Of a DNA stretch of 20,400 nt, positions 2,160-20,400 are shown in pieces (position 1 is the first letter of the stretch; each line of letters opens with the position of its first letter). Both the position numbers and the translations under genes were made by a program. Below the pieces are notes generated by a model. It did not search any database. It was not told where the DNA came from and saw nothing but the letters and a program-made list of their open reading frames with translations. Origin of the DNA: Clostridia bacterium. Its GTDB lineage: Bacteria > Bacillota > DSM-521 > Neomoorellales > Neomoorellaceae. The DNA lies in NCBI GenBank assembly GCA_030445875.1, contig JASUSX010000007.1:1-20400 (forward strand), in the 5' to 3' direction.

Positions 2160-2223
2160 GGCTAAGACCTCCTGCAACGTTTGCTGCTTAAAAAAGCCGG
2201 TTAACAGGCGCCGGTTACTATCA

Positions 2224-2252
2224 ATTAGACTACATTTACCGCGTTAGATCAA
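2224..2252 (-). promoter_or_regulatory. Putative sigma-A promoter of the DUF815 gene
   Basis: On the minus strand TTGATC (2247-2252) and TCTAAT (2224-2229) are separated by 17 nt, giving 4/6 and 5/6 matches to the -35 and -10 consensus. It lies about 65 bp upstream of the DUF815 start. Between promoter and start, the octamer GCCGGTTA occurs twice in direct orientation on the plus strand (2196-2203 and 2210-2217). Confidence 0.45.
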
Positions 2253-2318
2253 GATTTTTACCTGCCGGTTTTTTGGTGATCATTGTTGCCGGCCAGTGGT
2301 AATTCCAGTAAAATAAAA

Positions 2319-2411
2319 GTGGCAGTATCCTATTTTGACCTGCAGCCGTTGCTGGAGAGGCGCAATAAGAAAATGATCGCCAGGATACTGGAGGGTGGTC
2401 AGGGTGGTTGA
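2319..2411 (+). pseudogene. Possible C-terminal remnant of a nucleotidyltransferase (MntA-like) gene
   Basis: A short open frame from GTG 2319 to TGA 2409-2411 encodes SYFDLQPLLERRNKKMIARILEGG near its end. That resembles the C-terminal tail of minimal nucleotidyltransferase antitoxins. No catalytic GSxxxG motif is present, so at most a fragment remains. Its stop lies just inside the start of the next short frame. The resemblance is weak and could be chance. Confidence 0.25.
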
Positions 2412-2466
2412 TAAGGAAGTCGTTCGTAACCGGCTGGCCTTGCTGGGTGAGTTGGGAATTAGCTGA
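2404..2466 (+). pseudogene. Possible truncated HepT-like N-terminus, or leader peptide
   Basis: GTG 2404, preceded by GGAGGG at 2390-2395, begins a 20-codon frame (VVDKEVVRNRLALLGELGIS). Its TGA (2464-2466) overlaps the ATG of the FAD oxidoreductase as TGATG. The opening residues resemble the usual start of HepT/DUF86 toxins (MVDKxxVxxRLAxLxE), which normally follow MntA-type genes. The match is short. It could equally be a translated leader that couples ribosomes to the downstream gene. Confidence 0.3.
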
Positions 2467-4244: not shown

Positions 4245-4399
4245 CTTATTAAGCGTCTCTGTTCCCGGGACAGGGGCCCCGTTTCCACTTAACTAGCATT
4301 TCCTGGAAAAAAATCAATGCCCGCGGGATTGGCAGCAGGAAATAGAGGTCAGGGCACAGAATAGATCTAACTATCAAGCGGGGAGAGGGGAATGGTGGG

Positions 4400-5737: not shown

Positions 5738-5784
5738 GCCGTAGCTGGGTAAGCTTAAAACCGATCGTAAAGGGGGAACCACTG

Positions 5785-6813: not shown

Positions 6814-6836
6814 TTAGTACGGACCAGGGTTATAAT
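6807..6836 (+). promoter_or_regulatory. Putative sigma-A promoter 1 upstream of the fdh cluster
   Basis: TTGGTA (6807-6812), 18 nt, TATAAT (6831-6836). The -35 overlaps the stop codon of the hydroxy-acid oxidase gene. The -10 lies inside an inverted repeat, ACCAGG (6823-6828) with CCTGGT (6845-6850). Confidence 0.35.
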
Positions 6837-6900
6837 AGATTTAACCTGGTAGGAAAAGGTGGTGCCTTAAGTAATTATTGAGTTTCTGGATTTGGTCCGT
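6819..6900 (+). promoter_or_regulatory. Nested inverted repeats before the formate dehydrogenase cluster
   Basis: ACGGACCA (6819-6826) is exactly complementary to TGGTCCGT (6893-6900). Inside lie ACCAGG...CCTGGT (6823-6850) and a short AAGG/CCTT hairpin near 6856-6869. The arrangement could be a compact RNA element or a DNA operator set. Not assigned to any known class. Confidence 0.35.
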
Positions 6901-6947
6901 TCTAAATTGTGTACGTAAAGTAGCAAACTTTAATTATGAAAAAGTTA

Positions 6948-6977
6948 CTGACTGGTACCAGGATTTAATGTTATAAT
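6948..6977 (+). promoter_or_regulatory. Putative sigma-A promoter 2 of the formate dehydrogenase cluster
   Basis: CTGACT (6948-6953), 18 nt, TATAAT (6972-6977), about 45 bp upstream of the NuoE-like start. A perfect palindrome CTGGTACCAG (6952-6961) sits across the -35 and spacer and is a plausible operator; its half site ACCAG recurs at 6823-6827. Confidence 0.5.
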
Positions 6978-7022
6978 TACACTAAATTGGGGAGAAATCG
7001 TCGACAGGAGGGTTGGCCGGAG

Positions 7023-7532
7023 TTGATAGATAAGGACAGCACCAATAGGGCGAACATTAAGGAAGCAGCCCTGGCGGAGGCCCTGCAACGTTATGCCGGG
7101 GCGAGGGGAGCCCTGATCCCCCTGCTCCAGGAGGCCCAGGAGATTTATGGCTATTTGCCGCAGGAAGTAATGCAAACCATTGCTACAGCGCTAAAGATAC
7201 CCTTCAGCAAGGTCTACGGGGTAGCTACTTTCTATACCCAGTTTCACTTAAAGCCCCGGGGCCGCAACATCATCCGCGTCTGCCAGGGTACGGCCTGCCA
7301 TGTGCGGGGTGGCGCCCGGCTACTGGAAGCCATTTCCGCTGCCCTGGGGGTAGGGAAGAACGAGACGACCCCCGACGGCCTCTTTACCCTGGAAACGGTG
7401 GCCTGCCTGGGTTCCTGCGGCCTGGCCCCGGTGATGATGGTCAACGAGGAAACCTACGGGCGGCTGACGCCGGAGAAGATACCGGCGATTTTAGAAATGT
7501 ACCGGGGAGAGGCTGTTATAGCAGCGGGGTAA
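7023..7532 (+). CDS. NuoE-like [2Fe-2S] subunit of formate dehydrogenase complex
   Basis: A 169-residue thioredoxin-like ferredoxin of the NuoE/HydC family, an electron-transfer partner of the NuoF-like subunit. The four [2Fe-2S] ligands are present: Cys87 and Cys92 in CQGTAC, Cys128 and Cys132 in CLGSC. The N-terminal helical part (LIPLLQEAQEIYGYLPQEVM) and VYGVATFYTQF are typical. TTG 7023 is chosen as start because AGGAGGG lies at 7006-7012 with 10 nt spacing; an in-frame TTG at 6987 has no such site. It leads a block with the NuoF-like gene 45 bp downstream and the catalytic FdhA gene after it. The role is inferred to be part of an NAD(P)-linked formate dehydrogenase rather than complex I, because no membrane subunits are present. 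Confidence 0.9.
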   Translation: MIDKDSTNRANIKEAALAEALQRYAGARGALIPLLQEAQEIYGYLPQEVMQTIATALKIPFSKVYGVATFYTQFHLKPRGRNIIRVCQGTACHVRGGARLLEAISAALGVGKNETTPDGLFTLETVACLGSCGLAPVMMVNEETYGRLTPEKIPAILEMYRGEAVIAAG

Positions 7533-7577
7533 TAAAGGGTAATCTCTCATAATCTTTGTTCGAGAGGTGAAACCGAA

Positions 7578-9431
7578 TTGCGGGATTTGAAGGAATGGCG
7601 GCAAACTTTGCAACAGCAGGATCGCCCTGCGGACAGGCCCTCCCTTACCGTGGGCATGAGCACCTGCGGCCAGGCAGCCGGTGGCGCCAGGGTCATGGCC
7701 GCCCTGGAGGCCGAGGTAAAGCGGCTGGGTTTGCAGGTAGACATCAGCCAGACGAGCTGCATCGGCATGTGTTACGCCGAACCCATCGTGGAAGTGGCCC
7801 TGCCGGGGAAACCGCGGGTCTTTTACGGCGACATGACCCCGGAACGGGGAGGCCGGCTGGTAGCCAGCCATGTCGTCCAGGGGGTACCGGTGCGGGAATG
7901 GGCCCTCATCCAGTTGCCCGGAAACGCGTCTCCCTATGAGGGCATACCAGTTATGCCGGCCAGCCCTTACTACGGGCGCCAGGTGCGGGTGGTGACCTCC
8001 CGCCTGGGCCTTACTGACCCGGAAAGCCTGGCGGAATATATCGCCACCGGTGGTTATGCAGCCCTGGAAAAGTGCTTGCGCCAGATGACCCCGGAACAGG
8101 TGGTGGAAGAGATCAAGACTTCGGGCCTGCGCGGTCGCGGCGGCGCCGGCTTTCCCACCGGCCTGAAATGGGGTTTTACCCGCAGCGCGCCGGGGGAGAA
8201 AAAGTACGTGGTCTGCAACGCCGACGAGGGCGATCCCGGCGCCTTTATGGACCGCAGCGTCCTGGAGGGGGACCCCTTTGCCGTCATCGAAGGCATGACC
8301 ATCGCCGCTTACGCCATTGGTGCCGACGAAGGTTATATCTACTGCCGCGCCGAGTACCCCCTGGCCATCAAGCGCCTGAAGATGGCCATTGCCGCAGCGG
8401 AGGCAAAGGGTTTGCTGGGTTCCAATATTCTCGGTTCTGGTTTTAACTTTGAACTGCATATCAAAGCCGGCGCCGGTGCCTTCGTCTGCGGCGAGGAAAC
8501 GGCCCTCCTCGCCTCCATCGAGGGCCGGCGGGGTATGCCCCGGGTGCGGCCGCCCTTTCCTGCCCAGCAGGGGCTCTGGGGCAAGCCGACCAATATCAAT
8601 AACGTGGAGACCTACGCCAACGTCCCCTATATTATCCAGAACGGCGGCCGGTGGTTCGCCGCCATGGGTACGGAAAAGAGCAAGGGGACCAAGGTCTTCT
8701 GCCTGACGGGCAAGGTAAAGAAAACCGGGCTCATCGAGGTGCCCATGGGCATCACCCTGCGGGAGATTATCTTTGACATTGCCGGCGGCATCCAGGATGA
8801 CAGGCGGTTCAAGGCCGTCCAGATCGGCGGCCCGTCGGGGGGCTGCCTGCCCGCCGACAAACTCGATTTGCCGGTGGACTATGACTCCCTCACCCGCGCC
8901 GGGGCCATTATGGGGTCCGGCGGCATGGTGGTCATGGACGAGAACACCTGTATGGTGGACGTGGCCCGCTTTTTCCTGAATTTCACCCAGGTGGAGTCCT
9001 GCGGCAAGTGTACCCCCTGCCGGGAGGGCACCAAACGGATGCTGGAGATCCTCACCCGTATCTGCGCGGGCGAGGGCCGCATGGAGGACCTGGACACCCT
9101 GGAAGGCCTGGCGCGGGTGGTCAAGAATACGGCCCTTTGCGGATTGGGCCAGACCTGCCCCAACCCCATCCTCTCCACCCTGCAGAACTTCCGCCACGAG
9201 TACGAGGCCCACATTAAAGACAAGCGCTGCCCGGCCCATGTCTGCCAGGCCTTACTGGTCTACACCATTGACCCGGAAAAGTGCACCGGCTGCGGCGCCT
9301 GTACCCGCGCCTGCCCGGCCGGGGCCATCAGCGGGGAGAAGAAGCAGCCCCACCGCATTGACCCGGCCCTGTGCATCAAGTGCGGCAGCTGTATGGAGAA
9401 ATGCAAGTTCGGAGCCATCTCGAGGTTGTAA
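7578..9431 (+). CDS. NuoF/HydB-like NAD(P)- and FMN-binding subunit of formate dehydrogenase
   Basis: A 617-residue flavoprotein. An N-terminal thioredoxin-like domain keeps Cys30, Cys61 and Cys65. The NuoF core follows, with the NADH-site segment GLRGRGGAGFPTGLKW (about 183-198), FMN-site text CNADEGDPGAFMDR (213-226) and GAGAFVCGEETALL (298-311). An SLBB-type segment comes next, then the N3-type [4Fe-4S] ligands Cys475, Cys478, Cys481 and Cys521. A C-terminal bacterial ferredoxin domain has two CxxCxxCxxxC motifs (569-579 and 599-609). This is the HydB/HndC layout rather than plain complex I NuoF, which lacks the extra ferredoxin domains. Start TTG 7578 follows GAGAGGTGA at 7561-7569. It should move electrons between NAD(P)H and the FdhA iron-sulfur chain; electron bifurcation with ferredoxin is possible but unproven. 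Confidence 0.92.
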   Translation: MRDLKEWRQTLQQQDRPADRPSLTVGMSTCGQAAGGARVMAALEAEVKRLGLQVDISQTSCIGMCYAEPIVEVALPGKPRVFYGDMTPERGGRLVASHVVQGVPVREWALIQLPGNASPYEGIPVMPASPYYGRQVRVVTSRLGLTDPESLAEYIATGGYAALEKCLRQMTPEQVVEEIKTSGLRGRGGAGFPTGLKWGFTRSAPGEKKYVVCNADEGDPGAFMDRSVLEGDPFAVIEGMTIAAYAIGADEGYIYCRAEYPLAIKRLKMAIAAAEAKGLLGSNILGSGFNFELHIKAGAGAFVCGEETALLASIEGRRGMPRVRPPFPAQQGLWGKPTNINNVETYANVPYIIQNGGRWFAAMGTEKSKGTKVFCLTGKVKKTGLIEVPMGITLREIIFDIAGGIQDDRRFKAVQIGGPSGGCLPADKLDLPVDYDSLTRAGAIMGSGGMVVMDENTCMVDVARFFLNFTQVESCGKCTPCREGTKRMLEILTRICAGEGRMEDLDTLEGLARVVKNTALCGLGQTCPNPILSTLQNFRHEYEAHIKDKRCPAHVCQALLVYTIDPEKCTGCGACTRACPAGAISGEKKQPHRIDPALCIKCGSCMEKCKFGAISRL

Positions 9432-9655
9432 GCAGGTGCGAAAGAGGCCATCGATGTCTGCCGTAATATGGGTTCGTGGCTATCTCCGGCGGGTAAAATG
9501 CGGGCGGGGGACACCCGCAGTGGTTTATAAGCTCAAATCAAACGGGAGAAAAAGAGACGGAGGGGGAGACTTTAATCTGAAACTGGCGGAGCCAGTTTCT
9601 CCAGGGCTCCGACTTCCCACCTCCCACTTCCCACATCTATTTAGGGGGGAAATAC
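9432..9655 (+). other. Spacer between the NuoF-like gene and fdhA with a perfect hairpin
   Basis: This 224-bp spacer interrupts an otherwise compact cluster. It holds a perfect 9-bp inverted repeat, GAAACTGGC (9579-9587), GGA loop, GCCAGTTTC (9591-9599), without a following T tract. Immediately after comes a pyrimidine-rich triplicate of TCCCAC (9613-9634). A 69-codon frame from ATG 9454 to TGA 9661-9663 overlaps the fdhA start. Its composition is not protein-like and I do not call it a gene. The hairpin may stabilise or process the mRNA. Confidence 0.6.
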
Positions 9656-12352
9656 ATGGCTGACGTAACCCTGACTATAGACGGCAAGAAAATTACAGTA
9701 CCGGCCGGCACCACGGTACTGCAGGCCGCCCGGGAGAAGGGCATCTTTATCCCCACCCTTTGCCACGACCCGAAGCTTTCGCCCTGGGGCGGTTGCCGGC
9801 TGTGCGTGGTGGAGATTGAAGGTATGCGCGGTCTGCCGGCTTCCTGCGTTACCACCGCCACCGAAGGCATGGTGGTGCAGACGGCGTCGCCGGCGGTCCT
9901 GGAAGCTCGCCGGATGCTGCTGGAATTGCTCCTGGCCAACCATCCCCAGGACTGCCTCACCTGCAGTAAGAACGGCGCCTGCAGCCTGCAGGACTACGCC
10001 TACTACTACGGCGTGCGGGGGGACCAGTTCCAGGGGGAAAAACACGCCTATCCTGTTGAGGCGGACAACCCTTTTATCGTGCGGGACCTGAACAAGTGCG
10101 TCCTGTGTGGCAAGTGCATCCGCGTCTGCGACGAGGTCCAGGTCAACAACGCTATTGACTTCGCCCACCGTGGCTTTAACACCCGGGTCACCCCGGCCAT
10201 GGACCTGAGCTTAAAGGAATCGGAGGCCTGTGTCTTCTGCGGCAACTGCGTCCAGGTCTGCCCGGTGGGGGCCCTGGTGGAAAAGGCCAGCCTGTGGCAG
10301 GGCCGCCAGTGGGAGCTCACTAAAGTAAGGACCACCTGCACCTTCTGCGGCGTGGGCTGCAACCTGGAGGTCAGTGTCAAGGATGACCGGGTGGTACGCG
10401 TGCGCGGCTACGACAACCCCTTGGTGAACAACGGCTGGCTCTGTGTCAAGGGCCGCTTCGGCGCCGACTTTGCCGACAGCCCCGAGCGGGTCGCCCGGCC
10501 CCTCATCCGCACAGGCGCGCGGGGAGAAGGCCGCTTCCGGGAGGCTACCTGGGACGAGGCCCTGGATTACACCGCCCGGCGGCTAACTGAGATCAAGGAA
10601 CAGTACGGCAGCCGGGCCATCGCCGCCCTGAGCTCGGCCCGCTGCACCAACGAAGAGAACTACCTCATGCAGAAATTCATGCGCGCGGTGATCGGCAGCA
10701 ACAACGTCGACCACTGCGCCCGGACCTGACACGCCCCTACCGTGGCCGGTCTGGCCATTGCATTTGGTAGCGGCGCCATGACCAATTCCATAGCCGAGAT
10801 TGAGCATAACGACGTGTTGCTCATTATCGGCTCCAACACCACCGAGGCCCACCCGGTCATCGGCCAGAAGATGAAGCAGGCCGCCCGGCGGGGGGCGAAG
10901 CTCATCGTCGTCGACCCGCGCCGCATCGAGCTGGTGGATTATGCCTGCCTGTGGTTACCCATCAGGCCGGGGACCAACGTGGCCCTGATCAACGCCCTGA
11001 TGTACGTCATCATCACTGAAGGCTTGGTGGATAAGGAGTTTATCGCCGAGCGAACGGAGGGTTACGATAACCTCTGGTCCGTGGTGCAGAACTACCCGCC
11101 GGAGCGGGTAGCGGGGATTACCGGCGTGCCGGCGGAGGATATCCGGGCTGCAGCACGGTTGTATGCCACGACGGACAGGGCGGGGATTTTCTATACCCTG
11201 GGCATCACCGAGCACACCAGCGGCACCAACAACGTCATGAACCTGGCGAATCTCGCCATGATCACCGGCCATGTGGGTAAAGAGTTCAGCGGCGTTAACC
11301 CCTTGCGCGGCCAGAACAACGTCCAGGGGGCCTGTGACATGGGCGCCCTGCCCGACGTCTTCCCCGGCTACCAGAAGGTGGCCAACCCGGAGGTGCGGGA
11401 GCGCTTCGCCGCCGCCTGGAACTGCCGGCTGGACGGCACGTCGGGCCTCAGGATCCCGGAGATGATCGACCTGGCGGCCGAGGGCTATATCCGCGCCATG
11501 TACATCATGGGCGAGGACCCGGCCCTGACGGACCCGGACATCACCCATGTGCGTAAAGCCCTGGCCAACCTGGACTTCCTGGTGGTGCAGGACCTCTTCA
11601 TCTCCGAGACGGCGAAGTTCGCCGACGTCGTCCTGCCGGGCGCCAGTTTCCTGGAGAAGGACGGCACCTTTACCAGCACCGAGCGCCGGGTGCAGCGGGT
11701 ACGGCAGGCCATCAGTCCCCGGGGCGAGTCCCGGCCTGACTGGCAGATTATCGGCGACCTGGCGACCCGGATGGGCTACCCCATGGAGTATAATTCCCCG
11801 GAGCAAATTTTTGCCGAGATGGCCGGCCTCACACCCAGCTACGCCGGTATGAGCTACGAGCGCCTCGCGGGCGACGGCCTGCAGTGGCCCTGCCCGGCGC
11901 CGGATCACCCGGGGACGAAGTTCCTCCATGCCGGCAAGTTCCCGCGGGGTAAAGGCCTGCTCCAGGGCATCGAGTACCAGCCGCCGGCGGAGGTGACGGA
12001 TGAGGAATACCCCATCCTGTTGACCACCGGCCGGATGCTCTACCACTACGGCGTCACCACCCGCCGCTCGGCCGCCCTGGAGAGCTACCGGCCGGAGGAA
12101 TACGCGGAGATTAACCCGGCCCAGGCAGCGGAACTGGGGGTTAAGACGGGGGATAAGGTAACAGTAGTCTCCCGCCGCGGCCGCCTGGTGACCAGGGTGC
12201 AGGTGACGGACAGGGTGCCGCCGGGGATCATGTTTATGACCTATCACTACAAGGAATCCCCGGTGAACATCCTCACTAACGCCGCCTTTGACCCCGTAGC
12301 CAAGACGGCGGAGTATAAGGTGGCGGCGGTACGTCTGGAACCGGCGGGCTGA
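9656..12352 (+). CDS. fdhA: Selenocysteine-containing formate dehydrogenase catalytic subunit
   Basis: One 898-residue protein read through TGA 10727-10729 as selenocysteine (residue 358) in CART-Sec-HAPTVAGLA, the formate dehydrogenase active-site motif. It catalyses formate oxidation or CO2 reduction at a Mo/W-bis-pterin. The N-terminal NuoG-like region has a [2Fe-2S] site (Cys36, 47, 50, 64) and a His-Cys3 cluster (His96, Cys100, 103, 109). Two [4Fe-4S] sites follow (Cys148-158 and Cys192-202). The catalytic part begins with Cys228, 231, 235 and 263, then GSNTTEAHPVI, NPLRGQNNVQGACDMG and a C-terminal molybdopterin-dinucleotide domain (TTGRMLYHYGV). The frame is the same on both sides of the TGA, and a SECIS hairpin follows it. 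Start ATG 9656 has an AGGGGGGA site. Length is close to the Moorella FdhA I recall (about 890). Metal choice (tungsten in Moorella) cannot be read from sequence. Confidence 0.96.
10727..10757 (+). promoter_or_regulatory. Selenocysteine UGA codon and bacterial SECIS hairpin
   Basis: The UGA at 10727-10729 is followed 13 nt later by a hairpin: UGGCC (10743-10747), loop GGUCU (10748-10752), GGCCA (10753-10757), extendable by a G-U pair. The GGUCU apical loop is the known SelB contact in E. coli fdhF and Moorella fdhA SECIS elements. The codon-to-hairpin distance fits the bacterial type, where the element is inside the coding region. Confidence 0.93.
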
Positions 12353-12383
12353 TTAATATCAGCGCGCTGGAGACGTCCAAATA

Positions 12384-12422
12384 AAAAAAGGGAGATCATC
12401 AACCGGGTGATCCCCCTTTTTT
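12384..12422. terminator. Bidirectional rho-independent terminator
   Basis: AAAAAAGGG-A-GATCA (12384-12398) pairs with TGATC-C-CCCTTTTTT (12408-12422), with one A-C mismatch and a 9-nt loop. The A tract and T tract make it work on both strands. It separates fdhA (plus) from the RelE-like gene (minus), whose TAA at 12421-12423 overlaps the end of the stem. Confidence 0.9.
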
Positions 12423-12696
12423 AGTAGCCAAAGTCGCCTCTGGGTCCAAACTCAAGTATATGGACTTCCCGCCTCTCGTTATTGACTATGAATTTAAGCC
12501 GGTAACCCCCAATCCTGCGCCGGTAATATCCGGGTTTACCCTTAATGGTTTCAATGTCACCGGTGAAAGGGTTAACAGTCATATCTTCCAGGATGGCAAG
12601 CATTCTTACCTGCCATTTCCGGTTTAGTCTTTCAATATACCGAGCAGGCTGTTTGGCAAGGATGATCCTAAATCTCGAGCCTTTTCCTGAATTCAC
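12421..12696 (-). CDS. RelE/ParE-family toxin
   Basis: A 91-residue basic protein of the RelE/ParE fold. It shows the family layout: an N-terminal helical pair (AKQPARYIERLNRKWQVRMLAILEDM), then NPFTGDIETIKGKPGYYRRRIGGYRLKFIV and a C-terminal VHILEFGPRGDFGY. RelE members cleave mRNA on the ribosome and ParE members poison gyrase; the sequence does not decide between them. The annotated start overlaps the preceding antitoxin gene by 29 bp, so a later start is possible. It is convergent with fdhA and shares its terminator. Confidence 0.85.
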   Translation of the reverse strand: MNSGKGSRFRIILAKQPARYIERLNRKWQVRMLAILEDMTVNPFTGDIETIKGKPGYYRRRIGGYRLKFIVNNERREVHILEFGPRGDFGY

Positions 12697-12919
12697 TAAG
12701 CGCTACTCCCTGTCCGGTTTCTATTTCCAGTCGCGACTTTTTGAATGTCTCCTCTTCCTCTTCGGTTGCCGGGGAACCTTCGGGAATAAAATAAAGTTTA
12801 CCGTCCAGATCTATCCACTCCCCGGGTGGGCCAGCTATTACTTTCTTCAGGAAGTCGATTTTCTCCTGCGTAGTTAAAGTTATAAATTCATCAGCGAGTT
12901 TTTCTATCGCCAAAGTCAT
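12668..12919 (-). CDS. Antitoxin partner of the RelE-like toxin
   Basis: An 83-residue acidic protein directly upstream of and overlapping the RelE-like gene, the usual antitoxin position. It begins MTLAIEKLADEFITLTTQEKIDFLKKVI, a helical start. A charged central part (EGSPATEEEEETFKKSRLE) and a short C-terminal helix follow; the latter probably binds the toxin. I do not recognise a named DNA-binding fold. A G-rich ribosome binding site (AAGGGGG on the minus strand) precedes the ATG at 12919. Confidence 0.75.
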   Translation of the reverse strand: MTLAIEKLADEFITLTTQEKIDFLKKVIAGPPGEWIDLDGKLYFIPEGSPATEEEEETFKKSRLEIETGQGVALSEFRKRLEI

Positions 12920-13012: not shown

Positions 13013-14998
13013 TTATTCCTCCACCTTCAACTTGCGCCACAGGGTGGTGCGGCTGATCCCTAAACGGCGGGCGGCCTCGGCTTTGTTACCCCCCACTTCC
13101 GCCAGGAGGCGTTTGATGAGTCCCCGCTCCAGGGTGCTCACCTGGCCGGTGAGGGTTACCGGGTTTTCCCCGGTTTCCCCGCCTTTCCCATCGCCAACGC
13201 TCGTTGCCCCTCCGGCGCCGGGATAATTTACACCCCGCGGGTCATTTTCCCTGCCGCCGTTACCAGGTGCCCTGCCGGCCGATGATGCTGTCAGCCCCAG
13301 GACCAGGGCCACTTCGGCGGCGCTGATCGTCGGGGTGTGGCAGCGTAAGGAAAGGCGTTCCATACAGTTGCGCAACTCGCGGATATTTCCCGGCCAGCCA
13401 TACTGCAGGAGTACTCCCTGGGCCGCTGCTGTAAACCTGGCTTCCGGCCGCTGCAACTGGCGGCAGAACTCCTGGAGGAAGTGCTCGGCCAGGAGGAGGA
13501 CGTCGGCCCCCCGTTCCCGCAGGGGTGGCACTTCCAGGTTGAGGACGTTAATGCGGTAGTAGAGGTCTTCCCGGAAGGCCTGCTCCCTGACCATTTGCGC
13601 GAGATTCCGGTGGGTGGCGGCGATGACGCGGACGTTCACAGGGATGAGGCGGTCGTCCCCCAGGCGCATGATCTCCCCTTCTTCCAGGACCCGCAATACC
13701 CGGGCCTGGAGGCGGGGCGACATCTCTCCGATTTCATCCAGGAAGATCGTCCCTTCATGGGCGAGTTCAAAGAGGCCGGGTTTGCCCCCTTTACGGGCAC
13801 CGGTAAAAGCCCCTTCGGCATAGCCAAAGAGCTCGCTCTCCAGGAGGTTCTCCGGCAGGGCGGCGCAGTTAACGGCTACGAAGGGCCTGTTCCGCCGGGG
13901 TCCGGCCAGGTGGATGGCGTGGGCGAACATCTCCTTACCCGAGCCTGTTTCACCGTGGATGAGTACCGTTGACTGGACGGTGGCGTACTCCCGCGCCAGG
14001 CGTACCGCTTCCTGTAAAGGGGGGCTTTCCCCCAGGATATCGGCAAAGGTATACCGGGCCACGAGGCCGCGGCCGGCCAGGCTGCGCCGGACTTTGTGTT
14101 CCAGGTGTTGTAGGCTGGCGATATTCTGGAAGGTAGTCACCACCCCAACGGGCCGGCCGTCGACGATAATAGGCACCCGATTGGCTACTACCCGGGTGTT
14201 GCCTATATCCAGCAGTTCACCAAGCTCGGGCTTACCTGTTTGCAATAGAATATGGCACTGGGCGGCGGGGATCACCTCTGTCACCGGCCGGCCGATAGCA
14301 TCCGCGGCGCGCCAGCCGGAGTATTTCTCGGCCACCGGGTTAAAGACGGTGATCCGGCCTTCCTCGTCCAGGGCAATGATGCCGTCGTAGGCAAAGTCCA
14401 GGATGGCCTTTAGCTGCTCGGCCCTGCGTTTCTCCTGGTGACGGACCTGTAGCACCCGCTGGGCTTCCTTGAGGGCCTGGTAGACGGTCTCCTTGCCCGA
14501 GGTGATAATAACGCTGTTCAGGCCGTAGTGGCGGGCCTCGCGGGCCATGGCGATTTTGCCAATGACGACCTCGGCCCCGGCCTCCTTCAGGGCCAGGATG
14601 CCGCGCCGGATGTCATCCTCCTGGTTCTTCAGGGTGTATTTCAGGAAGGTGTCTCCCAGGATGGTCTCCAGGCTCTCCAGGCCCTGGATGACATCGGGGA
14701 CGTCGGCGATGCCGATGGGGCCGCCGAACTGTTTGGCCTGGTAATAGGCGCGCAGGATATCGTAGCCACCGATGGGCACGTCGACCACCGGCAGATCGAT
14801 GGCCTGCTGGATAAGCCAGGCCGTCACGCCGCGGCTGACGATTACCTGGCAGCCATCGCGGGCCAGGTTGCGGGCCAGGTTGACCCCTTCCTCCATCCGG
14901 GCGACGTGGATGTCGAGTTCCATTTCCAGCTCCTGGCTAACCTGGCGGGCGATATGGGCCAGCTCCTCGTAGGGGGCGATAAAGGCGATTTCAACCAT
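13013..14998 (-). CDS. Sigma-54 enhancer-binding regulator, PrpR_N-PAS-AAA-Fis
   Basis: A 661-residue activator of sigma-54 RNA polymerase. The N-terminal sensor, about residues 1-180, matches PrpR_N (MVEIAFIAPYEELAHIA, CQVIVSRGVTAWLI, VPIGGYDILRA); in PrpR this domain senses 2-methylcitrate. A PAS domain follows at about 193-300 (AILDFAYDGIIALDEEGRI). The AAA+ domain has Walker A GETGSGKE (349-356), the sigma-54 contact GAFTGA (396-401) and Walker B GTIFLDE (416-422). A Fis-type helix-turn-helix closes the protein (NKAEAARRLGISRTTLWRKL). ATG 14998 is chosen because GGAGGT lies at 15006-15011 with 7 nt spacing; an upstream in-frame start at 15208 adds residues unlike the family. It is divergent from an operon with a perfect sigma-54 promoter, which it very probably activates. 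The ligand is unknown. Confidence 0.95.
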   Translation of the reverse strand: MVEIAFIAPYEELAHIARQVSQELEMELDIHVARMEEGVNLARNLARDGCQVIVSRGVTAWLIQQAIDLPVVDVPIGGYDILRAYYQAKQFGGPIGIADVPDVIQGLESLETILGDTFLKYTLKNQEDDIRRGILALKEAGAEVVIGKIAMAREARHYGLNSVIITSGKETVYQALKEAQRVLQVRHQEKRRAEQLKAILDFAYDGIIALDEEGRITVFNPVAEKYSGWRAADAIGRPVTEVIPAAQCHILLQTGKPELGELLDIGNTRVVANRVPIIVDGRPVGVVTTFQNIASLQHLEHKVRRSLAGRGLVARYTFADILGESPPLQEAVRLAREYATVQSTVLIHGETGSGKEMFAHAIHLAGPRRNRPFVAVNCAALPENLLESELFGYAEGAFTGARKGGKPGLFELAHEGTIFLDEIGEMSPRLQARVLRVLEEGEIMRLGDDRLIPVNVRVIAATHRNLAQMVREQAFREDLYYRINVLNLEVPPLRERGADVLLLAEHFLQEFCRQLQRPEARFTAAAQGVLLQYGWPGNIRELRNCMERLSLRCHTPTISAAEVALVLGLTASSAGRAPGNGGRENDPRGVNYPGAGGATSVGDGKGGETGENPVTLTGQVSTLERGLIKRLLAEVGGNKAEAARRLGISRTTLWRKLKVEE

Positions 14999-15254
14999 GG
15001 GCCTGACCTCCATTCCAAAAATGCAACATAAAGACCCTTGATGTAACAATTCGCCGTTAAGGATCTTTTTCCTGCCAGGGGGGTGGCGGGGGCCTAAAAC
15101 TTGTTTCCCGGGGTTATTTGAACAAAAAAGGCACAGGCACTGGTGGAAGCGGGCGACGGTAACCTGCCTGGCAGCAGGGCGGATAGCCATTTTTTTATAA
15201 TTGAACACAGTAAAACGTTACGCTCGGTGTCGAAAGTAGCATAGATGAAACATT

Positions 15255-15291
15255 AAGCCCCCTCGGTTCTCTGGCCAGGGGCTTTTATTTT
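15255..15291 (+). terminator. Orphan rho-independent terminator in the divergent spacer
   Basis: AAGCCCC (15255-15261) pairs with GGGGCTT (15278-15284), followed by TTATTTTT. No coding gene precedes it on this strand, so it may end a small RNA or protect the downstream promoter from read-through. Confidence 0.7.
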
Positions 15292-15300
15292 TCCCCTGAA

Positions 15301-15346
15301 CCCTGTTATAGGGTCGGTTTTTAACCCCACCTTAACAGGGCGTTAA
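15301..15346. promoter_or_regulatory. Candidate upstream activating sequence for the sigma-54 regulator
   Basis: CCCTGTTA (15301-15308) and TAACAGGG (15333-15340) form a perfect 8-bp inverted repeat with a 24-bp spacer. A second repeat, TTAAC-AGGGC-GTTAA (15332-15346), overlaps its right arm, and GGTT-TTT-AACC (15316-15326) lies inside. The position just upstream of the sigma-54 promoter is closer than many enhancers, but dyads here are the natural candidates for regulator binding. Confidence 0.5.
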
Positions 15347-15351
15347 ACTGC

Positions 15352-15367
15352 TGGCACGAAACTTGCA
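15352..15367 (+). promoter_or_regulatory. Sigma-54 (-24/-12) promoter of the por-type operon
   Basis: TGGCACG-AAAC-TTGCA matches the sigma-54 consensus TGGCACG-N4-TTGC(A/T) at every fixed position. The invariant GG is at 15353-15354 and GC at 15365-15366 with correct spacing. Transcription should begin near 15378, leaving a leader of about 100 nt before the first gene. The divergent sigma-54 activator gene supports the call. Confidence 0.95.
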
Positions 15368-15380
15368 TTAAATGATTCAT

Positions 15381-15407
15381 AGTTCAGGTTTTTAGTTCGG
15401 GTTTTTT
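15381..15407 (+). repeat. Tandem repeat in the operon leader
   Basis: AGTTCAGGTTTTT (15381-15393) is followed directly by AGTTCGGGTTTTT(T) (15394-15407), two copies differing at one base. It begins within a few bases of the predicted sigma-54 transcription start. Function unknown. Confidence 0.7.
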
Positions 15408-15477
15408 ACAGGCCGAGCTTTTCAGCCAGTTTCTTAGCCTCAATCAACCCATGCATCCTGAAGCAGGAGGAAGAATT

Positions 15478-15774
15478 ATGGCAGCAAAGGATTTACCGCT
15501 GGTACCAGGGGCCCGGCCAGGGAGCATGGCCGCGGCGGCGGCCATGGAGCGCATCCGCGAACAGCGGCCGGCCATCGATAAAGAAAAGTGCAACCTCTGC
15601 CGCGAGTGCCTGCTTTATTGCCCGGACGCGGCCCTGGCGATAGCCGGGGGGGAGGTCAGGCTAGAGCTGCGGTTTTGTAAAGGGTGCGGCATCTGCGCCC
15701 GCGAGTGTCCCGCCCGGGCGATTACCATGGTGCCGGAGTACGCCGGCGACCGAGGATTGGTAGGAGAGGAGTGA
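15478..15774 (+). CDS. 2-oxoacid:ferredoxin oxidoreductase delta subunit (2x[4Fe-4S])
   Basis: A 98-residue ferredoxin-type subunit of four-subunit 2-oxoacid oxidoreductases. It passes electrons from the catalytic subunits to external ferredoxin. Two clusters are visible: Cys38, 41, 44, 48 and Cys67, 70, 73, 77 (CxxCxxCxxxC each). The 30-residue N-terminal extension is common in delta subunits. ATG 15478 has AGGAGG at 15465-15470 with 7 nt spacing. It is the first gene of the sigma-54 operon; the alpha subunit starts 6 bp after its stop. Confidence 0.93.
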   Translation: MAAKDLPLVPGARPGSMAAAAAMERIREQRPAIDKEKCNLCRECLLYCPDAALAIAGGEVRLELRFCKGCGICARECPARAITMVPEYAGDRGLVGEE

Positions 15775-15780
15775 AGGATT

Positions 15781-16941
15781 TTGCGCCAGTTGTTGAACGG
15801 TAACGAGGCTGCCGCCCATGCCGCCCGCCTGGCCCGGGTGGAGGTCCTGGCCTCCTACCCCATCACCCCGGCGGCGCCGGCCATGGAAAAGATAACCCAA
15901 TTTATAGCTGAGGGGAGCCTGAAGGCTAGATTTATCCGGGTAGAATCCGACCACAGCGCCATGGCGGCCGCCCTGGGGGCGTCCCTGGCCGGGGCGCGCC
16001 CTTTCCTGATTACCAATTCCCAGGGTCTGGCCTATATGAGCGAGGTCCTCTACCACACCTCCGGCCTGCGCCAGCCGGTGGTCATGGCCGTCGTCAACCG
16101 CGCCCTGGCCGCACCCCACAGCCGCTTCCCGGAACAAGGCGACGCGGTGGCCCAGGAGGCGGCCGGATGGATCCAGCTTTTCTGCGAGAACAACCAGGAG
16201 GTCCTGGACAGCCTTTTGCAGGCCTTTCGCCTGGGGGAAGACGAGGGGGTGCGCCTGCCGGTGATGGTCAATTATGAGGGTTATATCCAGTCCCACACCA
16301 GGGAGACGGTGGACCTGCCGCAACAGGAAGAGATCGACGGCTTCCTCCCCCTGATGCGGCGGCCGGCCCTGGATGTGGCGAACCCCATGGCTGTCAACAC
16401 GGTGGCCGGCCCGGAGCTGTATATGGACTTTAAGTACCACCAGGACGCCGCCCTGCAGCAGGCTGCCGCCGTCCTGGAGGAAGTGAGCGCGGCCTATGCC
16501 CGGCTGACCGGCCGCGATTGGGGTGGCCCGGTGGCAGGCTACCGCCTGGAGGATGCCGAGGTGGTGCTGGTAGCCATGGGCTCCCTGGTGAGCACGGCGC
16601 GGATTGCCGTGGACGCGTTAAGGGAAGAAGGGGAAAAGGCCGGTTTGCTCAAAATCCGCCTCTTCCGGCCCTTCCCGGCAGTGGCGGTGCGGCAGGGTTT
16701 GCCGGCCGCCAGGGCCATAGTGGCCCTGGACAAAAACATCGTCTACGGGGTGGGCGGCGCCCTGGGGCGGGAGCTACGGGCCAGCCTGTACGGACACGCA
16801 AGCGTCCCCGTATTCAGTTACATCCTGGGCCTGGGGGGCCGCGACGCAGGCGTGGCCGACCTGGCCCAGATTTACCGGCAGGTCCGGGAAAATATGGTGG
16901 CCGGCTTAACTCCAGCAGCCTATCAATGGTACGGCCTGTAG
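15781..16941 (+). CDS. 2-oxoacid:ferredoxin oxidoreductase alpha subunit (PorA-like)
   Basis: A 386-residue alpha subunit, closest by my reading to pyruvate-type PorA. It starts with LLNGNEAAAHAARLARVEVLASYPITPAAP, the standard opening, and continues with VESDHSAMAAALGASLAGARPFLITNSQGLAYM. Then come NRALAAPHSRFPEQGDAVAQEAAGWIQLFCENNQEVLD and LPVMVNYEGYIQSHT, all PorA landmarks. The C-terminal transketolase-like domain contains VVLVAMGSLVSTARIAVDALREEG and ALDKNIVYGVGGALGREL. With the beta subunit it forms the thiamine-diphosphate active site that decarboxylates a 2-oxoacid to acyl-CoA. The start is TTG 15781 after GGAGAGGAG. The true substrate need not be pyruvate. Confidence 0.93.
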   Translation: MRQLLNGNEAAAHAARLARVEVLASYPITPAAPAMEKITQFIAEGSLKARFIRVESDHSAMAAALGASLAGARPFLITNSQGLAYMSEVLYHTSGLRQPVVMAVVNRALAAPHSRFPEQGDAVAQEAAGWIQLFCENNQEVLDSLLQAFRLGEDEGVRLPVMVNYEGYIQSHTRETVDLPQQEEIDGFLPLMRRPALDVANPMAVNTVAGPELYMDFKYHQDAALQQAAAVLEEVSAAYARLTGRDWGGPVAGYRLEDAEVVLVAMGSLVSTARIAVDALREEGEKAGLLKIRLFRPFPAVAVRQGLPAARAIVALDKNIVYGVGGALGRELRASLYGHASVPVFSYILGLGGRDAGVADLAQIYRQVRENMVAGLTPAAYQWYGL

Positions 16942-16958
16942 GGCGGAGGTGAGAAGAT

Positions 16959-17831
16959 ATGGAACTTATTAACTCCTTAGCCGCAGTACCGGACACCGAG
17001 CTTTTCACCGGCGGCCACGGGGGCTGCCGGGGTTGCGGGGCCGCCCTGGCAGCACGCCAGGCCATGAAGGCCCTTGGCCCCCGCACCATCATTACCATAC
17101 CCGCTTCCTGTATGGCTACCATCGGCGGTTCGGGTTTGACCACCGCCTGGGAAATACCTTTTTACCATTCCCTGTTTGAATGTGCCCCGGCTGTCGCTTC
17201 CGGCATCCGCGCCGCCCTGGACATCCAGGGGATAGAGGACGTCAACGTGGTTTCCTGGGCCGGGGACGCCGGCACGGCGGACATCGGCTTTCAGTCCCTG
17301 ACGGGTGCGGCCGAACGCCAGGAGAATATCATCCATGTTTGTTACGACAATGAGACCTACATGAATACCGGCGGTCAAGCCGGCAGCGCCACTCCGTACC
17401 TGGCGGCCACGCCGGACACGCCGGCCGGGAAACCGACCCCCCGCAAGGATATGCTGGCCATCATGGCCGCCCATCGCCCGGCCTACCTGGCCACTGCTTC
17501 CGTCGCCTACCCCCTGGACCTGATTCAGAAATTCCAGCGGGCCAGGGAGATAGAGGGCTTCCGCTACATCCACATCCTGGCCCCCTGTTTCAAGGGGTGG
17601 GGCATCAAGGAGGACCAGACGGTACAGCTCGCCCGGATAGCCGTGGAGTGCGGCCTGTGGCAGCTTTACGAAGAGGTCGACGGCCGGCGCCGGGTGACTG
17701 TTATCCCGGAGCGGCGGCTGCCGGTGCGGGAGTACCTGCGGCTGCAGGGGCGTTTCCAGACCATGGATGAAGCAACCATCGCGGCATTGCAGGCCGCAGT
17801 CGACCGCCGCTGGCAGGAGGTGCCATCATGA
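16959..17831 (+). CDS. 2-oxoacid:ferredoxin oxidoreductase beta subunit (PorB-like)
   Basis: A 290-residue thiamine-diphosphate subunit. The cofactor motif is GDAGTADIG (102-110), where most relatives have GDGG, continuing to YDNETYMNTGGQ (129-140). The [4Fe-4S] ligands expected for PorB are present: Cys23 and Cys26 in CRGC, Cys51 in PASCMAT and Cys210 in LAPCFKGW. Length is normal for the family. ATG 16959 is preceded by GGAGGT (about 16945-16950), and its stop overlaps the gamma subunit start as ATGA, so translation is coupled. It shares the alpha subunit's role; the Gly-to-Ala change in the cofactor motif is mild. Confidence 0.93.
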   Translation: MELINSLAAVPDTELFTGGHGGCRGCGAALAARQAMKALGPRTIITIPASCMATIGGSGLTTAWEIPFYHSLFECAPAVASGIRAALDIQGIEDVNVVSWAGDAGTADIGFQSLTGAAERQENIIHVCYDNETYMNTGGQAGSATPYLAATPDTPAGKPTPRKDMLAIMAAHRPAYLATASVAYPLDLIQKFQRAREIEGFRYIHILAPCFKGWGIKEDQTVQLARIAVECGLWQLYEEVDGRRRVTVIPERRLPVREYLRLQGRFQTMDEATIAALQAAVDRRWQEVPS

Positions 17832-18232
17832 TTGAGATTCGCTTCCACGGCCGCTATGGCCAGCCTGTGGCCGCCCTGGCGGGAAAAGTAGCGCAGGCTG
17901 CCCTGGCGGCGGGGAAATACGTGCAGGTCTTTGACAGCTTCGGTGCCTACCGGCCCGGAGCCCCGCTGCAGACTACCGTCCGGGTGGACGGCGGTTTTAT
18001 CCGCGTCCGTGCGGCCAATGCCAGCCAGCCCGACGTGGTGGTGGTGCTGGACAACAGCCTGCTGGCCGTGACGGATGTTACCAGAGGATTAAAGGTAGGT
18101 GGCGCGGTGCTGGCCGCCGGCATCGGGCCGGAAGCCCTGGGGGAAAAGGGCAAGAGGTTCAGCTTTGTGGCGGTGGACACAGCCGGGGATAGGCAGGAGG
18201 CTGTTCTTAAGGCCCTGGAGGAGTTCCTATGA
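17828..18232 (+). CDS. Short, divergent gamma subunit of the 2-oxoacid oxidoreductase
   Basis: A 134-residue protein of the PorG/KorC family, which contacts CoA in the complex. It begins IEIRFHGRYGQPVAALAGKVAQAAL, where relatives have HGRGGQG; the glycine-rich loop is altered. AQVFDSFGAYRPGAP-type text follows (YVQVFDSFGAYRPGAPLQTTVRV), then PDVVVVLDNSLL. Family members are usually about 170-190 residues; this one lacks most of the C-terminal helical segment that normally includes a conserved NxxxLG stretch. No frameshift is evident: the stop overlaps the next start as ATGA, so the short form seems real. It may give a complex with altered CoA binding or acceptor use; this is inference. Confidence 0.85.
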   Translation: MIEIRFHGRYGQPVAALAGKVAQAALAAGKYVQVFDSFGAYRPGAPLQTTVRVDGGFIRVRAANASQPDVVVVLDNSLLAVTDVTRGLKVGGAVLAAGIGPEALGEKGKRFSFVAVDTAGDRQEAVLKALEEFL

Positions 18233-19401
18233 ATTTTCTGATGCAATCCCTGGCCCTGGCGGCCGGTAAGGAGCAGGTGGTGCCGGGGGAAGAGATAACC
18301 ATCAACGTTGACCTCATCCTGGGCCATGACGGTAGCGCTGGCAAGGTTCTGGCTGCCTGGCCGGACGGCGGGAAGGTAGCCTTTCCCGAACGGGTTGTTT
18401 TTACCTTGGACCACGCCCTGCCAGCGCCCACGGTGGCCAGCCGGCAGCTCCACCGGGAAATGCAGGCCTTCGCCCGGCGGCAGGGTATCCACCTCTTCGC
18501 CCGGGGCGATGGGGTACTGCACCAGGTGGTGGCGGAAAGGTTTGCCCCCCGGGCCGGGATGGTCATCGCCGGTGCTGACGGCCATGTGGCTACGGCCGGG
18601 GCCTTCGGGGCTATCGCCTTCTCCTTAACCCCCGCCGACCTGGTACCGGTGCTCCTTACCGGGCGGCTCTCCTTAAAGGTGCCGGAAACGGTAACTGTAG
18701 CGATCCAGGGACGTTTGCCAGCCGGGGTGACGCCCCGGGACCTGGGCCTGGAACTCTTGCGCCGGCTGGGCAATGGCCTCCTGCAGGGCAAAGCCCTTTT
18801 GCTCCAGGGTGAAGGCGTCTGGCAGCTTTCGCCGGCCGGCCGCATGGGCGTCTGCAACTTCATAGGCGAGATGGGCGGCGTCACCGGCCTGATTGTGTCG
18901 CCGGGGCAAGAAGCTGGGGCTGATTTAAGCCTTGACGCTACTACCCTGGAACCCCTGGTGGCCTGCCCGCCGGCACCGGCCAACGTCCATCCTTTATTTG
19001 CAGTGGCAGGCCTGCCCCTGACCCAGGTCCTGGTCGGGGGCTGCGGCAGCGGTCGCCTGGAGGACATGGAAGCCCTGGCGGAAGGGCTGGCCGGGAGGCC
19101 GGTCCATAGGGATGTAACCCTGCTGGTAGTACCGGCCTCCCGGGCTGTGCTGGAGGAGATGGAAGCCCGGGGCCTGGGGAAAGACCTGCGGCAGCAGGGG
19201 GCCATTATCCTGCCTCCTGGCTGTGGCCCCTGCCCGGGCCAGCACGCCGGCCTGCTGGCTCCCGGCGACCGGGCCCTGGCGGCTACCGTTCGCAATACCC
19301 CCGGCCGTATGGGTTCGGCGGAGGCGGAGATTTACCTGGCCTCCCCCCGGACGGCAGGCCTGGCAGCAGCCGCGGGGGCTATAGTTGCAGGGAACGCTTA
19401 A
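18229..19401 (+). CDS. Aconitase/LeuC-superfamily dehydratase large subunit, divergent
   Basis: A 390-residue protein recognisably of the isopropylmalate/homoaconitate isomerase large-subunit family. The three [4Fe-4S] ligands are kept: Cys272 in GGCGSGRLEDM, Cys332 and Cys335 in PGCGPC. The DH pair (Asp61-His62) and the arginine loop RNTPGRMGSAEAEIYLASP are also kept. Other active-site text differs: GADGHVATAG replaces the usual GxDSHT, and GGCGSGR replaces GSCTNGR. The family reaction is stereospecific hydro-lyase isomerisation of a tri- or dicarboxylic acid. No small subunit (LeuD-like swivel domain) is in the window; it may lie beyond the right edge. ATG 18229 overlaps the gamma subunit stop (ATGA), tying it to the oxidoreductase. 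Substrate unknown; leucine synthesis is unlikely given the context. Confidence 0.88.
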   Translation: MNFLMQSLALAAGKEQVVPGEEITINVDLILGHDGSAGKVLAAWPDGGKVAFPERVVFTLDHALPAPTVASRQLHREMQAFARRQGIHLFARGDGVLHQVVAERFAPRAGMVIAGADGHVATAGAFGAIAFSLTPADLVPVLLTGRLSLKVPETVTVAIQGRLPAGVTPRDLGLELLRRLGNGLLQGKALLLQGEGVWQLSPAGRMGVCNFIGEMGGVTGLIVSPGQEAGADLSLDATTLEPLVACPPAPANVHPLFAVAGLPLTQVLVGGCGSGRLEDMEALAEGLAGRPVHRDVTLLVVPASRAVLEEMEARGLGKDLRQQGAIILPPGCGPCPGQHAGLLAPGDRALAATVRNTPGRMGSAEAEIYLASPRTAGLAAAAGAIVAGNA

Positions 19402-19605
19402 AAGCGAACCGCTGGGATTAAATGCAGGGAGCGGTCCGGGCTGCCGTGCTTTACCCAGGCCTGCGGAATCTGATCGCTGCCCGGCAGCAAATGGTAGCCA
19501 AGAAAAGGAGGTGGTCGCCGGAATTTAGCCAATTTAATATATCATCCCGAGAACGTGGTTAATTTTGAAAGCGGGTACAGAATACAGCTACGAGGAGGGT
19601 TATAA
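19402..19605 (+). other. Spacer before the carrier gene
   Basis: This 204-bp spacer holds a near-perfect palindrome GCTGCC-C-GGCAGC (19476-19488) and an AGGAGGTGG (19505-19513) that resembles a ribosome binding site but leads to no usable frame. I see no T-tract terminator, so the carrier may still be co-transcribed. Confidence 0.5.
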
Positions 19606-20400
19606 ATGGAGGGCCTTGTTCCGGTAATATCCCTGATAGCCCTGATAATAGCCATCATCATCAGTGTTACCACCTCCCTGAATATCGGCACCCTGGCCAT
19701 GGGCTTATCCCTGTTAGTGGGCTATTATATCGGCGGGCAAAAAATCGATGCTATCCTCAAAGGCTATCCCACCAGCCTCTTTATCATGCTGGCCGGGGTG
19801 ACTTACCTCTTTGCCATCGCCCAGGTGAATGGCACCCTGGAGAAGATCACCAAATACGCCGTCAAAGCCGTCCGCGGTAATGTCGCCCTGCTACCCATCG
19901 TCTTTTTCTTCGTTGCCTTTGGCCTGTCGGCCATGGGACCCGGCCAGATCACCATCTCCGCCCTGATGGCCGCGCCGGCCATGCTCCTGGCGGAGGAAGT
20001 GGGCATCTCGCCGCTCCTTATGGCCCTGGTGGTCGGTAACGGCGCCCAGGCCGGGGCCATGTCGCCCATAGCGCCGCCGGGGATCATTACCGCCGGCTTA
20101 ACCCAGAAGATGGGCCTGACAGGGGTCAGCGGCGTCCTCTGGCTGAACATGTTTATCGGCCATGTGGCTGTTGCCATTATCGCCTACGTCCTCTTCGGCG
20201 GCCTTAAACTCCTGCGGGTCAAGGATTCCGGCCAGCGCCAGACCCTGATGAACATGCAGGTGGAACCCTTTACCCAGCAGCAGATTACGACCATTATCGG
20301 CATCGCCGTCCTGATTATCGGCGCCCTTTTCTTCAAGTTGGATATCGGCTTTGGCGCCTTCCTCATCGGTGCTGTCCTTTCCTTGCTGAAGGTTGCCGAC
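19606..20400 (+). CDS. MatC-type dicarboxylate carrier, N-terminal 265 residues (partial)
   Basis: The open frame from ATG 19606 (GGAGGG at 19594-19599, 6 nt spacing) runs off the right edge. It encodes a very hydrophobic protein with about seven membrane segments in the visible part, starting VISLIALIIAIIISVTTSLNIGTLAMGLSLLVGYYIGG. The text GPGQITISALMAAPAMLLAEEVGISPLLMALVVGNGAQAGAMSPIAPPGII fits the MatC_N (malonate/dicarboxylate carrier) family within the ion-transporter superfamily. It probably imports a di- or tricarboxylate for the preceding enzymes; the exact substrate cannot be read. A 204-bp gap separates it from the dehydratase gene on the same strand. Confidence 0.88.
   Translation, partial: MEGLVPVISLIALIIAIIISVTTSLNIGTLAMGLSLLVGYYIGGQKIDAILKGYPTSLFIMLAGVTYLFAIAQVNGTLEKITKYAVKAVRGNVALLPIVFFFVAFGLSAMGPGQITISALMAAPAMLLAEEVGISPLLMALVVGNGAQAGAMSPIAPPGIITAGLTQKMGLTGVSGVLWLNMFIGHVAVAIIAYVLFGGLKLLRVKDSGQRQTLMNMQVEPFTQQQITTIIGIAVLIIGALFFKLDIGFGAFLIGAVLSLLKVAD

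Follow-up and report, generated by a model that had tools for sequence, protein, structure and literature searches.

The window analysed here, a whole contig of 20,400 nt (JASUSX010000007.1, ending at position 20400), comes from a Neomoorellaceae genome of 1.57 Mb that is 58.8% complete. It carries the genes porD, porA, porB and porG for the delta, alpha, beta and gamma subunits of a 2-oxoacid:ferredoxin oxidoreductase, followed by a gene whose product resembles the large subunits of the aconitase/LeuC family and lacks a dedicated small subunit. These five genes form a conserved unit together with a sigma-54 promoter and a carrier gene. The sequences suggest that this unit is a catabolic operon for an organic acid, controlled by sigma-54 and a PrpR-type activator, in which a distinct oxidoreductase subfamily would work with the orphan aconitase-fold protein, a reading that we hold with roughly even confidence. 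The parts appear to be of known kinds, and their combination would constitute a distinct variant.

The activator gene lies on the minus strand, divergent from the sigma-54 site, which is followed by porD-porA-porB-porG, the aconitase-like gene and a MatC-type carrier gene that is incomplete because the contig stops (Table 1). Every gene named in the original prediction is present with the expected domains, and the 4-base ATGA overlaps that it reported between porB and porG and between porG and the aconitase-like gene are real in the window. We compared 13 loci, namely those of ten near relatives (the window included) and three (L070, L071 and L072) that belong to other families of the same phylum. 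The four por genes and the aconitase-like gene occur together on one strand at all 13, across three family-level groups, which bears out the expectation that relatives keep the dehydratase-like gene next to the por genes. The porB/porG overlap is kept at eight loci and the porG/aconitase-like overlap at only two. The carrier had also been assigned to the unit, and a MatC homologue is indeed part of it at 11 of the 13 loci, although its position varies. At L070 and L071 it sits between porG and the aconitase-like gene, a place taken by a GntP-type permease at L040 and by the 96% identical homologue of that permease at L041. At another locus (L043), an IS110-family transposase gene is found inside the unit, between the aconitase-like gene and matC.

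Among 61 genomes searched near the window, ten (the window genome included) carry the aconitase-like gene at an identity of at least 62%; the homologues of Moorella stamsii and Moorella sulfitireducens are 83% and 75% identical, respectively. Profile searches of 398 genomes of the phylum separated the same 12 genomes (G000, G001, G004, G008, G009, G010, G014, G016, G017, G142, G187 and G393) from all others with each of three proteins. These genomes scored at least 582 bits for the aconitase-like protein (next nine, 415-459), at least 501 bits for PorB (next, 323 and below) and at least 175 bits for the gamma subunit (next, 92 and below). The aconitase-like, PorB and short-gamma subfamilies thus co-occur without exception in this sample. 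Judged by titles and abstract openings among the matches listed, open-licence PMC papers do not describe this gene set, which does not imply its absence from print.

The original prediction placed a consensus-perfect sigma-54 promoter opposite the activator gene. The pattern TGGCACGNNNNTTGCW has a single perfect match in the window, on the plus strand at that position, with 0.02 expected from shuffled windows. A site scoring at least 10 of 12 occurs near porD at 12 of the 13 loci, the exception being L071; the site is upstream of porD, or at porD in the case of L070 and L072, where the start of porD is uncertain. Sites of this quality number 29 in 523,056 positions (13 loci, both strands), including the 12 near porD, and a chance site within a stretch of about 530 bases is therefore unlikely. 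A PrpR-type gene adjoins the unit at 12 loci (seven divergent, five on the same strand) and is again absent from L071.

The window regulator has the PrpR_N-PAS-AAA-HTH architecture and misses the equivalog cut-off of TIGR02329 (411.5 of 499.2 bits). Comparison with homologues indicates that it most likely starts at position 14998 (M-V-E-I-A-F) rather than at 15208. The methylcitrate- or citrate-like ligand originally proposed does not follow from this sensor type. The window genome has three PrpR_N regulators, one of which (L006, G000:C15:5000-12744, at 784-6853) stands next to a different por-like set, with an alpha subunit that is 28% identical, so that this domain is not tied to methylcitrate; moreover, the unit at L071 has no PrpR neighbour. 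No prp genes were found among the annotated neighbouring open reading frames (ORFs) of seven loci (L037, L040, L042, L043, L044, L047 and L070), some ORFs being unannotated.

Together, the por genes encode the alpha, beta, gamma and delta domains of a four-subunit POR-type 2-oxoacid:ferredoxin oxidoreductase. Gamma and delta pass the cut-offs of broad subfamily models (TIGR02175, 85.1 of 81.1 bits; TIGR02179, 77 of 60 bits), and the PorA, PorB and PorC equivalog cut-offs are missed (422.9 of 550, 332.6 of 405 and 93.2 of 270 bits, respectively). For both alpha and beta, the nearest solved structure is that of the four-subunit pyruvate:ferredoxin oxidoreductase (PFOR) of M. acetivorans (9bt4). 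The window enzyme shares with it the complete domain set, a beta subunit that binds thiamine pyrophosphate (TPP) and, by alignment, the Thr and Arg that bind the substrate carboxylate. These are found in the YPITP and NR motifs of window PorA, which align with Thr31 and Arg114 of D. africanus PFOR (published numbering taken as chain index plus one). In contrast to the M. acetivorans enzyme, the window unit has His-x-Arg in the loop of the side-chain pocket and an aconitase-like companion gene.

Leu121 of D. africanus PFOR forms part of the pyruvate methyl pocket (PMC5020499). The equivalent loop of window PorA reads APH-S-R, and His-x-Arg replaces the hydrophobic loop of PFOR-type enzymes at all 13 loci. 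Arg115 of the window protein aligns with Ile123 of D. africanus PFOR, which we take to line the methyl pocket, and Leu121 is aligned either with His113 or with a gap, the latter by HMMER. The motif APH[ST]R is present in PorA of all 13 loci, and PHxR in all 120 of the best database matches listed, own protein included (118 PH[ST]R and two PHCR). The outgroup comprised the readable PorA sequences of the eight next-best porB loci (L098 gave no coverage, and some of the remaining seven are closely related); their residues at the Arg position are Leu, Leu, Phe, Leu, Ile, Leu and Ile, with Arg in none. The distant PorA of L006 has Val there.

The gamma subunit is also unusual, being 134-146 residues long at the 13 loci, compared with 182 in M. 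acetivorans PFOR. Its motif is GRYGQP (for GRGGQG) at 11 loci, GRFGQP at L070 and GRYDQD at L072. A predicted model of window gamma (pLDDT 80.9) aligns over 130 residues with positions 1-144 of the 182 in 9bt4 gamma, which identifies it as a trimmed domain III. This shortening may signify that dependence on coenzyme A (CoA) is altered or lost. The oxalate oxidoreductase (OOR) of Moorella thermoacetica (5c4i, 5exd, 5exe), a member of the same clan from the same genus, is an oxidoreductase of this class for a charged acid and needs no CoA (PMC5020499). We rejected an identity with this enzyme. The window subunits score far below the OOR cut-offs (alpha, 248 of 500; beta, 248 of 590), alpha carries YPITP where OOR has YPIRP, and porG and porD are separate genes, unlike the fused domain III-V subunit of OOR.

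The aconitase-like protein has the PF00330 fold with the three cluster cysteines, and these, along with several His, Asp, Glu and Arg positions, are kept across about 50% divergence. The canonical DSH, SCTN and NRNF motifs are changed throughout the subfamily to DGH, GGCxxGR and x[RK]NxxGR, and among the best 120 database matches listed (own protein included), DGHV occurs in all and CTNG or NRNF in none. A predicted model covers domains 1-3 only, domain 4 being absent. The cut-offs for large subunits of isopropylmalate isomerase (IPMI) and homoaconitase are missed (TIGR02086, 343.4 of 410.15; NF001614, 324.9 of 385). Compared with the structures of such subunits (4kp2, 4nqy), about 30 residues are lacking after residue 225, in addition to the altered motifs and the absence of a dedicated small-subunit gene. 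For the aconitase-superfamily members with a mechanism described in PMC8184944, the base is a domain 4 serine, the role given there to Ser642. Aconitase X, also treated in that paper, is likewise a divergent branch of the superfamily and has new chemistry.

A search for a LeuD-like subunit had been proposed. No unpaired LeuD-type gene was found in the 13 cluster genomes, where all PF00694 matches, judged by hand genome by genome (the window genome being only 58.8% complete), lie in fused aconitase frames or beside LeuC-type genes, and thus none belongs to the aconitase-like gene. Together with the motif changes across the subfamily, this speaks against the conventional dehydratase or isomerase that was originally proposed. 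Each of the 13 genomes does carry a LeuC-LeuD pair. Scanning of viral contigs revealed no relative. A Moorella genome without the unit (G003, L048, 5742-17212) encodes a further LeuC-like protein, about 37-39% identical, whose gene is accompanied by a small-subunit gene (PF00694) and by several large genes that are unannotated.

The nine genomes of the second tier in the aconitase-like search help to place the subfamily. Eight of their proteins, full-length and of similar size, keep DSHT, SCTNGR and NRNF and, in contrast to the window protein, are followed by a LeuD-type motif within 900 bases downstream. From the gene set we presume these eight to be DmdA, the large subunit of dimethylmalate dehydratase, from nicotinate-fermentation clusters. 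The single set that was annotated (L075) includes a LeuD/DmdB-type small subunit, a PrpF/oxalomesaconate-tautomerase-like protein, a GlmL-like protein, a PrpB-like lyase and a hydroxyacid dehydrogenase, and we take it to be a nicotinate-fermentation set. Given the DmdA type and canonical motifs of these eight, a methylcitrate or dimethylmalate pathway was rejected for the window. The eight sets (L074-L081) come from other families of the phylum, and their ORF sizes resemble those of nicotinate-fermentation clusters.

The ninth protein (L073, genome G389) is an orphan like that of the window, to which it is 40% identical. It carries DGHV, is followed by no LeuD-type motif and comes from a genome in which no PF00694 gene stands unpaired; it differs in its GGCTNGR and NRNF motifs, which are nearer the canonical forms, and in having no por homologue within the 20 kb around it. 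Neighbouring genes encode a PrpR_N activator, a GntP permease, a lyase of threonine-aldolase type that uses pyridoxal phosphate (NF041359, 360 bits against a cut-off of 230) and an aminotransferase closest to the aspartate-glyoxylate aminotransferase BhcA (427 of 650, below the cut-off). The best sigma-54-like site ahead of the aconitase-like gene scores 9 of 12. Such an orphan occurs in one of 13 genomes of the order of G389, with no second case. The orphan branch is therefore not bound to por genes; in both of its settings it is accompanied by a PrpR-type activator and a carrier, together with enzymes of small 2-oxo acids. The L073 set (G389:C3:43501-63500, at 2964-12778 on the minus strand) possibly represents an unrecognised glyoxylate/glycine route; it adjoins trimethylamine methyltransferase-type and corrinoid genes.

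The mechanism that we propose begins with import of the acid by the MatC- or GntP-type carrier. The aconitase-like protein would act on the imported acid at its [4Fe-4S] cluster, upstream of the oxidoreductase and without a general-base domain, and a 2-hydroxyacid dehydrogenase of the GlcD/GlcF type would take part in some genomes. PorABGD would then catalyse the TPP-dependent oxidative decarboxylation of the resulting 2-oxo acid and reduce ferredoxin. The His-x-Arg loop might hold the second negative charge of a 2-oxo-dicarboxylate, or it might fill the methyl pocket, leaving room for glyoxylate only. With the shortened gamma subunit, CoA dependence might be altered or lost, and glyoxylate as the substrate would yield formate as one product; this step and the action of the aconitase-like protein are the least certain. 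In outline, the proposal retains the import and ferredoxin-linked oxidative decarboxylation of the earlier working model and abandons its conventional dehydratase or isomerase step.

Glyoxylate and a charged 2-oxo acid (such as oxaloacetate, mesoxalate, 2-oxoglutarate or sulfopyruvate) appear about equally good substrate candidates. Glyoxylate is suggested by the GlcDF-type genes, the BhcA-like neighbour at L073 and the formate dehydrogenase gene beyond prpR at the other Moorella loci, and a charged acid by His-x-Arg and MatC_N. Genes for GlcD and GlcF, both of 2-hydroxyacid dehydrogenase type and below equivalog cut-offs, adjoin the unit at L070, L044 and L047; at L044, glcD and the aconitase-like gene share four bases, and at L047 a sigma-54-like site (10 of 12) precedes glcD. 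Farther downstream, L037 and L040 carry purA, a gene for a flavin adenine dinucleotide protein and genes of lactate dehydrogenase type, as well as EamA or a lactate permease gene, with no LeuD; homologues of these genes are found at several other loci. In both loci of one family, the unit is followed by a small protein of 133-140 residues (L070, 13237-13659; L071, encoded on the reverse strand by the ORF next after the aconitase-like gene). The two are 45% identical, and that of L070 has no Pfam match at 1e-5.

Several points weigh against this operon reading. L071 lacks both the PrpR neighbour and the promoter, GntP replaces MatC at two loci and leaves the class of acid uncertain, and GlcD/GlcF adjoins the unit at only three of the 13 loci. 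The search profiles were built partly from the same cluster loci, a single family accounts for nine of the 12 genomes sampled, and no more than 4, 6 or 10 first-look candidates were scored per genome. Arg115 is placed by an alignment in which HMMER has a gap at Leu121, and the charge and small-pocket readings of its loop contradict each other on the substrate. Finally, L073 is a single genome with intermediate motifs and a BhcA match under the cut-off.

Other roles for the aconitase-like protein were considered. It could be a normal dehydratase or hydratase that provides the oxidoreductase with its substrate by means of LeuD borrowed from the leucine pathway, for example through maleate- or citraconate-type hydration before oxidation. 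The conserved cluster cysteines and polar positions would suit this, a LeuC-LeuD pair is at hand in every cluster genome, and a large subunit serving several small ones is known in plants (PMC7308503). However, the subfamily has altered all three motifs that the eight DmdA-type relatives with a LeuD-type motif have kept, and we consider such borrowing unlikely. Somewhat more doubtful is a fixed oxidoreductase subunit that delivers or gates the substrate. The exceptionless company of the por subfamilies favours such a subunit, and the shortened gamma might leave room for a partner, yet a carrier gene separates porG from the aconitase-like gene at four loci (GntP at two, MatC at two). Among 7998 candidates scored, no match covering more than 75% of a joined gamma/aconitase-like query was present in the best 120 of 208. 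The DGH orphan at L073 also exists without por genes, and the protein is therefore more likely an enzyme in its own right. A non-catalytic iron- or redox-sensing component of the unit seems equally doubtful: loss of the general-base domain (the base being Ser642 in PMC8184944) and the changed substrate-site motifs are in its favour, whereas retention of cluster ligands and many active-site positions across such divergence argues for ligand binding or chemistry.

The whole unit might instead be an ordinary pyruvate/lactate operon, with PorABGD a PFOR variant for growth on lactate and the aconitase-like gene incidental. The best NCBIfam matches are indeed pyruvate/ketoisovalerate por models, with gamma and delta above broad cut-offs, and several relatives have, farther downstream, LdhH-type lactate dehydrogenase genes or a lactate permease gene. 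In addition, Moorella sp. Hama-1, which carries this PorA, is reported to oxidise lactate (PMC6003730). Nevertheless, alpha, beta and gamma all fall below equivalog cut-offs, the methyl-pocket loop has His-x-Arg, gamma is shortened and the aconitase-like gene is present at all 13 loci, which together make this explanation very improbable.

Table 1. Features of the unit and its regulator in the window.
Feature	Position	Strand	Remark
PrpR-type sigma-54 activator: PrpR_N, PAS, AAA+ (Sigma54_activat), Fis-type helix-turn-helix (HTH_8)	13013..14998	-	Open frame to 15208, likely start 14998
Sigma-54 -24/-12 site TGGCACGAAACTTGCA	15352..15367	+	Perfect match
porD, delta subunit, 2 x [4Fe-4S] ferredoxin	15451..15774	+	Likely start 15478; TIGR02179 over cut-off, 77 of 60 bits
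porA, alpha subunit (POR_N, PFOR_II), TTG start, APHSRFP motif	15781..16941	+	Domain matches
PorA His113-Ser114-Arg115 codons	16117..16125	+	Loop carrying methyl-pocket Leu121 in D. africanus PFOR
porB, beta subunit, TPP binding (TPP_enzyme_C)	16959..17831	+	Domain matches
porG, shortened gamma subunit (POR), 134 residues, GRYGQP replacing GRGGQG	17828..18232	+	
Orphan aconitase/LeuC-like large subunit (PF00330), 390 residues, domains 1-3 only	18229..19401	+	
Aconitase-like Asp117-Gly118-His119 codons, DGH replacing family DSH	18577..18585	+	
MatC-type dicarboxylate carrier (MatC_N, PF07158), cut by contig end	19606..20400	+	

Beyond the activator gene, the window encodes a formate dehydrogenase alpha subunit with an N-terminal NuoG-like part (9656-12352, plus strand), preceded by NuoE- and NuoF-like genes. 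Its in-frame TGA at 10727-10729 (context HCART-TGA-HAP) almost certainly specifies selenocysteine. A formate dehydrogenase gene is likewise found on the far side of prpR at all six other Moorella loci; this arrangement would suit a formate product but may be mere synteny. Two small genes at 12421-12919 on the minus strand resemble, by eye, a RelE/ParE-type toxin and its antitoxin.

We also put forward, as a tentative extension of the operon reading, that the orphan proteins may be a new branch of aconitase-fold [4Fe-4S] enzymes that dispense with the swivel domain and serve at least two different acid-catabolic operons. In the window, such an enzyme would feed a new, CoA-independent oxidoreductase that is specific either for a charged 2-oxo acid or for glyoxylate, possibly passing its product on directly within a complex. 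If the proposed function is correct, the aconitase fold would have a new use, in which the iron-sulfur site is kept, domain 4 is dropped and the company of a TPP-dependent oxidoreductase is retained. The database names homoaconitase, isopropylmalate dehydratase and pyruvate synthase would then need correcting for these proteins, and acetogens and Desulfitobacterium- and Desulfosporosinus-type bacteria would possess an extra catabolic route, complete with regulator and carrier.

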